A DNA stretch of 64,000 bases from Bryobacteraceae bacterium (lineage in GTDB: Bacteria; Acidobacteriota; Terriglobia; Bryobacterales; Bryobacteraceae): positions 62,001 to 126,000 of the forward strand of contig JANWVO010000054.1 in the NCBI GenBank assembly GCA_025056865.1, written 5' to 3'. The position numbers and the translations under genes were made by a program. Numbering within the stretch: position 1 is the first letter of the stretch; the number at the start of each line of letters is the position of its first letter. This document shows positions 61,030 through 63,978 of the stretch, in pieces. The notes under the pieces are model-generated. The model searched no databases and was not told the DNA's origin. It saw only the letters and a list, made by a program, of their open reading frames with translations.

Positions 61030-62268
61030 CTACTGGCCCGGCTCGAACCACGGCGTGTCTTTCACCTGGGCCTTGCGCGCGGCCTCCTCGTTCATCTCGA
61101 CGCCGAGGCCCGGCCGGTCCGGCACGGGGACGAAGCCCTTTTCGATGATGTCGCCCTCTCGCACGAAATTGCGCCACAGCTCGAGCCGCGAAATCCAGTG
61201 CCACTCCAGCACAAGGAAGTTCGGGACAGCGGCGCAGACGTGGCAGGAGGCCATCGTCCCGATTGGCGACACGACGCAGTGCGGCGCAAAAGGCGTGTAG
61301 TAGGTGTGCGCCATGTCGGCGATCTTGCGCCCTTCCAGCAGCCCGCCGCACTTCTGGAGGTCCGGCATGACGATGTCGACCGCGCGCTTCTCGAGCAGCT
61401 CGCGGAAGCCATGGCGCAGAAAGAGATTCTCGCCCGCGCAGATCGGTGTGGTGGTGGATTCGCGGATGTCGCGCATCACATCGATGTTCTCGGGCGGCAC
61501 CGGCTCCTCCAGCCACAGCAGGCGGAAACGCTCCAGCTCGCGCGCCACACGCTTCGCCGTCGTTGCGTCGTAGCGGCCATGCATGTCGACGGCCAGGTCG
61601 ACGCGGGGGCTGAGTGTCTCGCGCACGAAGGCGACCTCCTTCACCATGCGGTCGATCTCGGCGTTGGAGGCGGTCCAGTTGACGCGGTCCCAGCGGTTGG
61701 GATCATTGGCCTCGTCGATGTCGATTTTGACGGCGGTGAAGCCCATCGCTTCAATCTCTTTCAGCTTCGGCCTCGCCTGCGGGTCGTCGGGGTGGTGGTT
61801 GGCCGAGTCGCAGTAGAGCCGGATGCGGTCGCGAACCTTGCCGCCCAGAAGCTGGTAGACGGGCACGCCAAGCGCCTTGCCGGCCAGATCCCAGAGGGCG
61901 ATTTCCACGGCGCTGAGCGCGGCCACATACTGGCCGCCCTGCGCGCCGGCGAAGATGCCCGCAGTGCGGATGCGCTCCCACAGCGCTTCCACGTTGAGCG
62001 GATCCTGCCCGACCAGGAAACGGCGGAACATGCGGACGATGCCGGCGCCGCCCTGGACGGCGTCCGTGCCTTCGCCATGTCCGTAGAGTCCCTGGTCGGT
62101 GTAGATCCGCACGTGCAGTTGAAGGCCGTGGGCCATTACCTGCGCGGTGCGCACATCGGTGATCTTCAGCCTCGGGCGGCGCGACGGCGGCGCCTGCGCC
62201 TGGATGGCGCGAGCCAGCGCGGGAAGAGAGAGGGCGGAAGCGAGAAGATGGCGGCGGGACCAGGACAT
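61030..62268 (-). CDS. Enolase-superfamily dehydratase (mandelate racemase/muconate lactonizing type), Tat-exported
   Basis: A 412-residue enzyme. The N-terminus SWSRRHLLASALSLPALARA is a Tat signal. The capping domain follows, then the barrel with metal ligands in VDLAVDMHGRYD (Asp), LLWLEEPVPPENIDVM (Glu) and PICAGENLFLRHGF (Glu); a His lies in FAPHCVVSPIGTM, fitting galactonate/gluconate-type acid-sugar dehydratases. The Lys pair in TAVKIDIDE supports the MR/MLE group. It sits convergent with the sulfatase remnant (7-base gap), a combination typical of sugar-acid and sulfated-polysaccharide use. A structured leader with terminator lies 18-120 bases upstream. Confidence 0.9.
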   Translation of the reverse strand: MSWSRRHLLASALSLPALARAIQAQAPPSRRPRLKITDVRTAQVMAHGLQLHVRIYTDQGLYGHGEGTDAVQGGAGIVRMFRRFLVGQDPLNVEALWERIRTAGIFAGAQGGQYVAALSAVEIALWDLAGKALGVPVYQLLGGKVRDRIRLYCDSANHHPDDPQARPKLKEIEAMGFTAVKIDIDEANDPNRWDRVNWTASNAEIDRMVKEVAFVRETLSPRVDLAVDMHGRYDATTAKRVARELERFRLLWLEEPVPPENIDVMRDIRESTTTPICAGENLFLRHGFRELLEKRAVDIVMPDLQKCGGLLEGRKIADMAHTYYTPFAPHCVVSPIGTMASCHVCAAVPNFLVLEWHWISRLELWRNFVREGDIIEKGFVPVPDRPGLGVEMNEEAARKAQVKDTPWFEPGQ

Positions 62269-62286: not shown

Positions 62287-62324
62287 AAAAAGGAGAACGG
62301 CGAGGCCCGCAGGCCTCGCCGTTC
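62287..62324 (-). terminator. Intrinsic terminator between pruA and the enolase-superfamily gene
   Basis: On the minus strand, a perfect 13-bp stem: 62324-62312 pairs with 62307-62295 around a TGCG loop, followed by TCC and five T (62291-62287). It is the strongest intrinsic terminator in the window. It can end pruA transcription or a short RNA started at the TATAAT box. Confidence 0.8.
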
Positions 62325-62388
62325 GCCACGCGGATCAGAGTCGACCCTAAGTCTGTGACTTGATGGTCCCCTTTGGAACGGGGCTACG
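62287..62388 (-). ncRNA. Candidate ~100-nt leader RNA or small RNA
   Basis: A transcript starting about 7 bases after TATAAT (62399-62394) and ending at the terminator would be ~100 nt. It can form a CCCC/GGGG hairpin (62383-62380 with 62371-62368), a small AAGTC/GACTT hairpin (62361-62357 with 62353-62349) and the terminator stem. CCGTTC at 62381-62376 is identical to the 3' end of the terminator arm and can pair with GAACGG at 62324-62319, as an antiterminator would. It is either a cis-acting leader of the enolase-superfamily gene or a free RNA. It matches no RNA family that I can name. Confidence 0.45.
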
Positions 62389-62393
62389 CCCTC

Positions 62394-62399
62394 ATTATA
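62394..62399 (-). promoter_or_regulatory. Perfect TATAAT box downstream of pruA
   Basis: TATAAT on the minus strand, 26 bases after the pruA stop codon. No good -35 box is present at 16-18 bases (CTCTCC/TCTCCC region), so activity would need an activator or relaxed -35 use. It would drive the leader/small-RNA candidate. Confidence 0.45.
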
Positions 62400-62424: not shown

Positions 62425-63978
62425 TCAGCCGATCTTCTCGCCGATCGACTTGCCCTGGGTGAACCAGAACAGATAATCCGGGCCGCCGGCCTTGGAGTCC
62501 GTGCCGGACATGTTGAAGCCCCCGAAGGGGTGCGCACCAACCATCGCGCCAGTGCACTTGCGGTTGATATAGAGGTTGCCGACGTGGAAGAGATCCTTGG
62601 CTTTTTCGATCTTCCCGCGGTTCCGCGTGTAGACGGCGCCGGTGAGCCCGTACTCGCTGTCGTTGGCGAGTTCGAGCGCATGGTCGAAGTCCCGCGCCGG
62701 CGTCACCGCGAGCACCGGGCCGAAGATCTCTTCCTGGAAGATGCGCGCCTTTCGGTCCACGCCTTCAAAGATCGTTGGCGCGAGGAAGTACCCCTCGCCC
62801 GGAAGCCGCCCGCCGCCGGTGACGAGACGCCCTTCCTTCTTCCCGATTTCGATGTAGCCGAGGATCGAGTTCATCGAGCGCTCATTGATCACCGGTCCCA
62901 TGAAATTGGAAGGATCGTCCGCCGGACCCACGCGGATTTCCTTCACTTTGGCCACCAGCCGGTCCAGGAAATCCGCGTAGATCTTTTCGCTGACGATCGC
63001 CCGGGAGCAGGCCGAACACTTCTGGCCCTGGTAGCCGTAGGCGCTCACCAGCACGCCCTGCACGGCAGCGTCGAGGTCGGCCTCCTCATCCACGATGATG
63101 GCGTCTTTGCCGCCCATTTCGGCGATCACGCGCTTGATCCAGATCTGGCCGGGCACGACCTTCGAGGCCAGCTCATTGATCCTCAGCCCGACCTCGCGCG
63201 ATCCGGTGAACGAGATGAAGCGGGTTCGCGGATGCTCGACAAGCACGTCGCCCACCTCGGCGCCGCTGCCCACCAGCAGCGTGAACGCCTGCGGCGGAAA
63301 GCCCGCTTCCTCGAGCACCTCGGCGAACTGCGCGGCAATGGTCGGCGTGTCCGAGCTCGGCTTGATGACCACGGTGTTGCCGGCGACCAGCGCCGCCGTG
63401 GTCATGCCCGTCAGGATGGCCAGCGGGAAGTTCCAAGGCGGAATGATGACGCCTACGCCGAGGGGAATGTAGCGCAGCTCGTCGCGTTCGCCGGGGAGCT
63501 GGACCAGCGGTTCCGGGTTTGCCATGCGCTCGGCCAGCAGCGCGTAGTATTCGCAGAAGTCGATCGCCTCGCTGACGTCGGCCTCTGCTTCCGGCCACGT
63601 TTTCCCTGCTTCGTAAACAAGCCAGGCGTCGAACTCCATCTTGCGGCGGCGCAGGATGGCGGCGGCACGGCGCAGCATCTCGGTGCGTTCGGCCACCGGC
63701 GTGGCCGCCCACTTCGGGAAATAGGCGTCTGCGGAGGCGATGGCCGCCCGGGCCAGCTCCGGCGTGGCCTTGTGGTGCAGGCCAACCACTTCGGAGGGCC
63801 GGGAAGGGTTGATGGATTTCAGCAGAGCGCCGGTGCGATGACGGGCCTCGCCGATCCGGATGTCATACTCTTTTCCGAACTCGGCGCGGACAGCGGACAG
63901 GGCCGCCCGCATCTTCTCGGCGTTCTCGGACAGGGAGAAGTCGGTGTAGGGCTCGTTCCGGAAATCGCACAGGCGCAT
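62425..63978 (-). CDS. pruA: L-glutamate gamma-semialdehyde dehydrogenase
   Basis: A 517-residue NAD-dependent aldehyde dehydrogenase of proline catabolism, converting glutamate semialdehyde/pyrroline-5-carboxylate to glutamate. The N-terminal region (YDIRIGEARHRTGALLKSINP), PPWNFPLAILTGMTTAALVAGN, FTGSREVGLRI, IAEMGGKDAIIVDEEAD and the catalytic Cys segment GYQGQKCSACSR are diagnostic of the stand-alone PruA group, as is the C-terminal GAHPFGGFNMSGTDSKAGG. ATG 63978 follows GGAGGG. Upstream, a frame ending LVEG-stop at 63986-63984 may be the end of the preceding gene, possibly proline dehydrogenase; too little is visible to say. The intrinsic terminator at 62324-62287 can end its message. 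Confidence 0.95.
   Translation of the reverse strand: MRLCDFRNEPYTDFSLSENAEKMRAALSAVRAEFGKEYDIRIGEARHRTGALLKSINPSRPSEVVGLHHKATPELARAAIASADAYFPKWAATPVAERTEMLRRAAAILRRRKMEFDAWLVYEAGKTWPEAEADVSEAIDFCEYYALLAERMANPEPLVQLPGERDELRYIPLGVGVIIPPWNFPLAILTGMTTAALVAGNTVVIKPSSDTPTIAAQFAEVLEEAGFPPQAFTLLVGSGAEVGDVLVEHPRTRFISFTGSREVGLRINELASKVVPGQIWIKRVIAEMGGKDAIIVDEEADLDAAVQGVLVSAYGYQGQKCSACSRAIVSEKIYADFLDRLVAKVKEIRVGPADDPSNFMGPVINERSMNSILGYIEIGKKEGRLVTGGGRLPGEGYFLAPTIFEGVDRKARIFQEEIFGPVLAVTPARDFDHALELANDSEYGLTGAVYTRNRGKIEKAKDLFHVGNLYINRKCTGAMVGAHPFGGFNMSGTDSKAGGPDYLFWFTQGKSIGEKIG

Follow-up and report, generated by a model that had tools for sequence, protein, structure and literature searches.

A conserved small RNA gene with a CRISPR-repeat-like 5' hairpin and its probable recognition by Cas6

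The DNA analysed here (the window) is a 64,000-nucleotide stretch whose minus strand carries, in this order, a TATAAT box, about 100 nt, a 13-bp terminator and, 18 bases past the T run, the ATG of a dehydratase gene. In the original prediction this arrangement was read as an attenuator- or riboswitch-like leader of the dehydratase gene or, alternatively, as a small RNA. The elements themselves (TATAAT, CCGTTC, the 13-bp terminator and the ATG 18 bases on) are as it described them, with correct coordinates. Judged from its sequence, the stretch is a complete free-standing gene for an sRNA of about 95-100 nt, equipped with a promoter and an intrinsic terminator of its own and set among the following features:

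62425..63978, minus strand: aldehyde dehydrogenase (pruA-like) gene (PF00171), 5' of the sRNA
62394..62399, minus strand: TATAAT, the -10 box of the sRNA promoter, assigned from the sequence
62368..62383, minus strand: 5' hairpin CCCC-GTTCCAAA-GGGG of CRISPR-repeat type, a predicted Cas6 site by comparison with repeats
62381-62376, minus strand: CCGTTC segment, the antiterminator of the original prediction, inside the loop of the 5' hairpin
62325..62367, minus strand: conserved 43-nt core starting ACCATCAAG, the predicted mature 5' part, conserved in sequence without covariation
62287..62324, minus strand: intrinsic terminator of the sRNA, a 13-pair stem (62324-62295) followed by TCCTTTTT; the stem covaries in the family
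61030..62268, minus strand: enolase-superfamily (MR_MLE) gene (PF13378/PF02746), the dehydratase, 3' of the sRNA, with its ATG at 62268

The folded 100-nt RNA consists of the 5' hairpin, two small hairpins and the terminator, with a minimum free energy of -50 kcal/mol (z -5.3). The predicted cut position lies between 62368 and 62367 (GGGG/ACCA, the slash marking the cut). A promoter search of the window listed no promoter with a consensus -35 at the sRNA site. The original prediction had counted this missing -35 box against itself; across the family, its absence is accounted for by an extended -10 promoter. Among 131 distinct homologous upstream sequences, 111 have a TAnnnT box 5' of the hairpin (15.6 expected after shuffling), and a G stands two bases before the box in 96 of 107 aligned upstream sequences, which is the extended -10 type (TGN). 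The window sRNA itself has TCG at this position.

Conservation of the stretch goes well beyond chance. A DNA search of the window's own genome and 100 relatives found strong counterparts of the 121-nt stretch in each of the four congeners (E 7e-34 to 4e-46) as well as in three other genera (E 1e-16 to 1e-8). These matches span the leader and not the terminator alone. The original prediction would have counted a lack of conservation outside the terminator stem against itself; the opposite is found, the leader being the most conserved part. A covariance model built from 11 sequences matched 213 of the 237 genomes of the window's family (apparently the Bryobacteraceae) at E<=1, mostly once per genome, although four of these matches (G043, G172, G173 and G181) are weak and not trustworthy, and all but that of G181 failed a retest. 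For family genomes of good quality, the figure is 141 of 148. No credible copy was detected in 22 genomes rescanned with laxer filters, a set that includes 19 matchless genomes (four by elimination), five further matchless genomes lying outside the rescan. In a class sample of 399 genomes, matches to a core-only model occurred in 93 of the 101 genomes from the family and, weakly (best 27.1 bits, partial), in 25 of the 298 others, and none of the matches outside the window's family was convincing. In one family genome (G150), a weak second partial core match of 22 bits (L255, 800-847) lies about 200 nt from the main copy and is perhaps a decayed duplicate.

Within the family, 74 distinct sequences align gap-free over 60 columns (alignment A4, from which L138, a 75th sequence with one extra loop base, was left out). 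A larger set of 137 distinct cores, which excludes the hairpin-less L218, L219, L222 and L223 as well as the weak second match in L255, shows a stem CCCC/GGGG that is invariant except for one C to T, a loop that mostly reads GATNNGAA, and an A and a C directly 3' of the hairpin in nearly all sequences. The landmarks of the core are AGGGT, GA and one invariant C. No pair within it covaries significantly (none at E<1 over 60 columns and 137 sequences, judged against a home-made tree-based null), and central helices seen by eye in this 60-nt core, for example GUCRA/UYGAC, are not claimed. A likeness of the core to a tRNA T-arm, also judged by eye, was rejected as one base short. The main stem of the terminator, in an alignment fitted to the structure, has changes on both sides in 12 of 12 pairs.

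The order of the elements in the window does suit a ligand- or attenuator-type leader of the dehydratase gene, but the comparative data make this reading very improbable. Among 57 loci of dehydratase relatives, three of which (L076, L082 and L084) hold almost no upstream sequence, six carry the sRNA element, five of these directly upstream of the dehydratase. ORFs were also mapped crudely at 61 loci, in most cases a single locus for each genus, with ORFs predicted across the sRNA set aside. In this map the neighbouring gene families differ across loci and between genera, and in 26 of the 60 loci that have a next ORF (one of the 61 has none) this ORF runs on the opposite strand. The constant same-strand link to one downstream gene class that would mark a riboswitch or attenuator was thus found neither in this map nor in the 57 dehydratase loci. 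Nor was a covarying aptamer structure found in the core among the 137 sequences, or a conserved mutually exclusive antiterminator across the aligned relatives: the CCGTTC segment belongs to the hairpin loop and occurs only in part of the window's genus, other genera mostly having GATNN. The Rfam covariance-model search that had been proposed along with the leader reading returned no match at the gathering score. The best Rfam overlap with the sRNA, seen in one of 15 loci (L110, 1545-1595), is a sub-threshold match to BjrC68, an sRNA of Bradyrhizobiaceae (26.5 bits, E 0.008, gathering 39), which covers the core end and the terminator and is probably due to chance. One contig (L081, DYJN01000016.1) is labelled Arcobacter sp., yet has the sRNA-dehydratase arrangement of the congener G002; the label looks wrong. 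Even less credible is the doubt, also raised in the original prediction, that the stretch merely terminates the aldehyde dehydrogenase gene upstream. Its terminator does follow the stop codon of that gene by about 100 nt, and a relative of the gene is the nearest upstream ORF in 8 of the 61 loci, but the terminator is preceded by a conserved promoter and a conserved 60-nt core, and the whole unit is unchanged in form where the adjacent genes are unrelated. What is borne out is the small RNA that the original prediction had named as its alternative, a unit independent of its flanking genes with a conserved promoter and terminator of its own.

The 5' hairpin of the sRNA, CCCC-GNNNNGAA-GGGG-AC, equals the hairpin of CRISPR repeats in the family, and the core model also matched 3' halves of CRISPR repeats in some genomes. 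The exact repeat-type pattern CCCCGNNNNGAAGGGGAYTGAAA occurs in 34 of the 237 family genomes, with at least two copies in 22 of them; the reversed pattern, searched as a control in the same 237 genomes, gave zero matches. In the window's genus the loop is changed in both elements, the repeat reading GTTCAAAA and the sRNA GTTCCAAA or GTCCAAAA. Here, the pattern CCCCGNNNNRAAGGGGAYTGA has 4 matches in the window's genome, 287 in G001 and 104 in G004, reading CCCCGTTCAAAAGGGGATTGA among the matches listed, and no match in the congeners G002 and G003. The sRNA loops of the genus are GTTCCAAA (the window's genome, G002 and G004), GTCCAAAA (G001) and GTTGCAAA (G003). These five loops equal the repeat loop of the genus at 7, 7, 7, 7 and 6 of 8 positions, while 10 of 137 other 8-nt sRNA loops reach 6 of 8 and none more. 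At the level of sequence, repeat and sRNA of the window's genus deviate in a common direction from what is seen elsewhere in the family, a co-change that counts as about one event, the five genomes being related. The likeness also has its bounds. Among the 20 genomes having both elements, the sRNA loop is identical to a repeat loop in only one, and the 8 nt after the sRNA hairpin are not the AYTGAAAC of the repeat, ACCANNAA standing there instead. Part of the likeness in stem and loop could reflect convergence on a stable hairpin. The window's genome has in addition a second CRISPR array (L316, 8551-9289, contig C23), whose repeat ends GAAGAAGCGATTGAGAC and which lies beside a third type of Cas6.

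Cas6 (PF10040) was found in 130 of 150 family genomes versus 2 of 14 controls. The class sample had it in 27 of 30 genomes within the family versus 6 of 131 outside, and two sister families in 1 of 19. Because Cas6 is near-universal in the family and rare outside, it shares one taxonomic range with the sRNA. In a tree of 42 Cas6 proteins (midpoint-rooted for drawing only), clade B comprises 28 rows with a support of 100/100. All eight Cas6s whose fetched stretch also contains canonical-loop repeats belong to it, the repeats (in some cases single ones only) lying 0.2 to 9 kb off; so do one Cas6 with a variant array and 19 whose fetched stretch is array-free. The Cas6 of the window's genus belongs to clade A, and a third clade contains other Cas6s, including the protein that the window's genome encodes next to a different array. 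At 14 array-less clade B loci, a padloc scan of 86 of 100 neighbouring ORFs (short ones were dropped) found Cas6 itself 13 times, and neither Cas1 nor Cas10 appeared among the best 25 of 148 families; orphan status of clade B proteins may extend beyond these loci. Three clade B proteins without a nearby array match the Cas6 profile above its cut-off. An AlphaFold2 model of an array-less clade B Cas6 (pLDDT 89) has Cas6 TTHB231 of Thermus thermophilus as its best match among solved structures (PDB 4c9d, E 8e-13). Unlike TTHB231, a CRISPR Cas6, the modelled orphan protein has no array within its fetched stretch. Some Thermus repeats have a CCCC/GGGG stem.

Orphan status does not hold for every one of these Cas6s: in the window's genus, the clade A protein adjoins Cas10, Csm5, Csx1, Cas1 and Cas2 (type III). 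A type III-A-like CRISPR-Cas locus of this genus is seen in L317 (4491-8000, contig C12 of the window's genome), with Cas10 and Cas6, and in L318 (1997-13992, G001), with Cas1, Cas2, Csx1, Cas6 and Csm5; the 287 repeats of matching hairpin type in G001 sit elsewhere in the genome than the latter locus. Around clade B Cas6, 4 of the 86 neighbouring ORFs encode a ClpB-like AAA protein, which in L329 (10049-11494) is fused to a response-regulator domain, and an antisense ORF in L329 and L331 resembles, by eye, infA on the other strand. Two tandem clade B Cas6 genes are present in L338 (4448-6604, G159), about 9 kb from a hairpin-type array.

The state of the hairpin goes with the Cas6 clade. The clade B profile matches 205 of the 237 genomes, 194 of which pass 1e-35, an E-value cut of the author's choice by which, rather than by the tree, clade B was assigned for most genomes; the search scored 10 candidates per genome, which may have produced some false absences. 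Of 134 clade B carriers with known sRNA state, 114 show a canonical hairpin, 7 an altered one and 13 no detected sRNA, the last including G011, G014, G125 and G232, each more than 90% complete; the Cas6 of G011 and its relative G188 is array-linked. In the 37 genomes without clade B, the hairpin is canonical in 14 and altered or lost in 14, with the sRNA absent in 9. Over these 171 genomes of known sRNA state, the canonical hairpin is associated with clade B at p 4e-8. With one genome per genus, the median p is 0.004 (90th percentile 0.017), and collapsing identical genus states gives p 0.01, the events of joint Cas6 and hairpin loss being few once genus is considered. The 171 are the genomes with an sRNA sequence, the 22 retested as absent, and G210, entered as lost solely on a score like that of G209; genomes with a match but without a fetched sRNA sequence (e.g. 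G035 and G044) were left out, and G054 was counted as lost though a different hairpin is present, the totals being unchanged.

The hairpin-less sRNAs of G053, G209 and G211 all occur in Cas6-less genomes, from two lineages (G053; G209 with G211), G210 having scored like G209. In these three, a -10 box identified by eye lies 4-6 nt upstream of the homologue of the predicted cut (GGGG/ACCA), so that the primary transcript would begin about where the Cas6 product would. Two genomes in which clade A is the only Cas6 found also deviate: G054 has a different hairpin on its sRNA, and G059 an altered sRNA loop unlike that of its nearby repeat. Among the 20 genomes without a PF10040 match, the sRNA is still present in 10, with the hairpin seen in eight (G003, G015, G020, G103, G165, G202, G223 and G274) and deduced from the score in G035 and G044. 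Another four have no hairpin (G210 by score), and the sRNA was not found in the remaining six (G138, G163, G164, G190, G191 and G201). Assembly gaps may explain some of the Cas6-less carriers, not surely all; one of them, G015, has a weak match to the clade B profile.

A limited search of open-access PMC found no paper on an sRNA of this group among its top matches, although two surveys (PMC2864571, PMC9067536) could hold a related motif. Phrases for orphan Cas6 had a plant-breeding review (PMC8866350) as sole open-access PMC match among the matches listed. By analogy, the closest precedent is s479 of Haloferax volcanii, described in PMC8155600 as a non-CRISPR sRNA with a repeat-like sequence that is matured by Cas6, bears a crRNA-like 5' handle and regulates host mRNAs. 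The s479 gene is flanked by a CRISPR array on one side and cas genes on the other, and a type I-B Cascade seems to bind the RNA. The family sRNA is likewise non-CRISPR and carries a CRISPR-repeat-like sequence, its maturation by Cas6 being predicted. In contrast to s479, it lies among ordinary genes and is conserved throughout a bacterial family; its 3' end is formed by an intrinsic terminator, and the Cas6 that accompanies it often has no array nearby. CreA of the CreTA systems is described (PMC9458426) as an ectopic repeat-like RNA outside arrays that is processed by Cas6; usually carrying two degenerate repeats, it directs Cascade to the repression of the toxin RNA CreT next to a CRISPR-Cas locus. 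The family sRNA is also a repeat-like RNA outside arrays with predicted Cas6 processing. Instead of two repeat-like elements flanking a guide, it has one intact hairpin followed by the core and a sequence-variable terminator, without a second repeat or a fixed neighbour. Racrs (PMC10651486) are phage- and plasmid-encoded RNA anti-CRISPRs, solitary repeat-like units behind a promoter that mimic a CRISPR repeat. The family sRNA shares the solitary unit behind a promoter and the repeat mimicry; unlike Racrs, it is chromosomal, mostly single-copy and equipped with a long conserved core. Instead of mobile elements, its contexts are chromosomal, and an exact-pattern scan of viral contigs gave no true homologue.

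Of the features expected of a Cas6-matured sRNA, a repeat-like Cas6 hairpin in the transcript is matched by the likeness at the DNA level, and a Cas6 of matching type occurs in the genomes, if not in every one. We consider it likely that the stretch encodes a chromosomal free-standing sRNA whose CRISPR-repeat hairpin is bound and probably cut by Cas6 and whose core acts in trans. The Cas6 endoribonuclease would recognise and bind the repeat-like 5' hairpin and probably cut at its 3' base (GGGG/ACCA), which would yield a product of about 80 nt starting with the handle-like ACCANNAA. The conserved core would then work in trans, most likely through base pairs formed with mRNAs. For much of the family, the protein involved would be an orphan, domesticated clade B Cas6, and for the window's genus the clade A Cas6 that belongs to a type III CRISPR-Cas system.

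Alternatively, and with a smaller though appreciable probability, the RNA is a free-standing trans-acting sRNA whose hairpin serves stability only, the likeness to repeats (4-bp stem, GA..GAA loop) being convergence and Cas6 uninvolved. 5' hairpins are a common means of RNA protection, the core persists where the hairpin is gone (G053, G209, G211) or replaced (G054), and half of the Cas6-less genomes keep the sRNA. Yet the CCCC/GGGG stem hardly varies, 3 of its 4 pairs being invariant in 61 sequences, which is unlike a stem kept for stability alone; the changed loop common to repeat and sRNA in the window's genus, the shared taxonomic range of Cas6 and sRNA, and the coupling of hairpin state to Cas6 clade point in the same direction. 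A solitary repeat-like unit directly behind a promoter, as described for the phage Racrs (PMC10651486), could also mimic a repeat from the chromosome and titrate Cas6, thereby tuning or blocking CRISPR-Cas. Such a role appears improbable given the varied chromosomal loci and a conserved core of about 43 nt that outlives both hairpin and Cas6. One exact pattern, scanned against IMG/VR, matched only once, within an ORF on a viral contig and with no accompanying hit of model R1, and most carriers lack the searched repeat pattern (it occurs in the 34 of 237 genomes and, with the genus loop, in three congeners, though draft assemblies can lose arrays).

Beyond recognition by Cas6 as such, a family-wide domestication may have taken place, a proposal that could equally well hold or fail: Cas6 would have become a protein dedicated to maturing or chaperoning a single housekeeping sRNA, with which, as an orphan, it would form a non-immune ribonucleoprotein regulator, and in lineages that lost Cas6 the promoter would have moved up to the core, leaving the RNA 'cut' from birth. 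If true, this would be a non-immune use of a CRISPR enzyme throughout a family and not the oddity of one strain. It would also account for a near-universal Cas6 in a family where repeats of matching type were found in a minority. With one RNA, one enzyme and natural losses of each, the family would offer a test system, including a genus whose repeat, sRNA and Cas6 clade jointly differ from the rest of the family.
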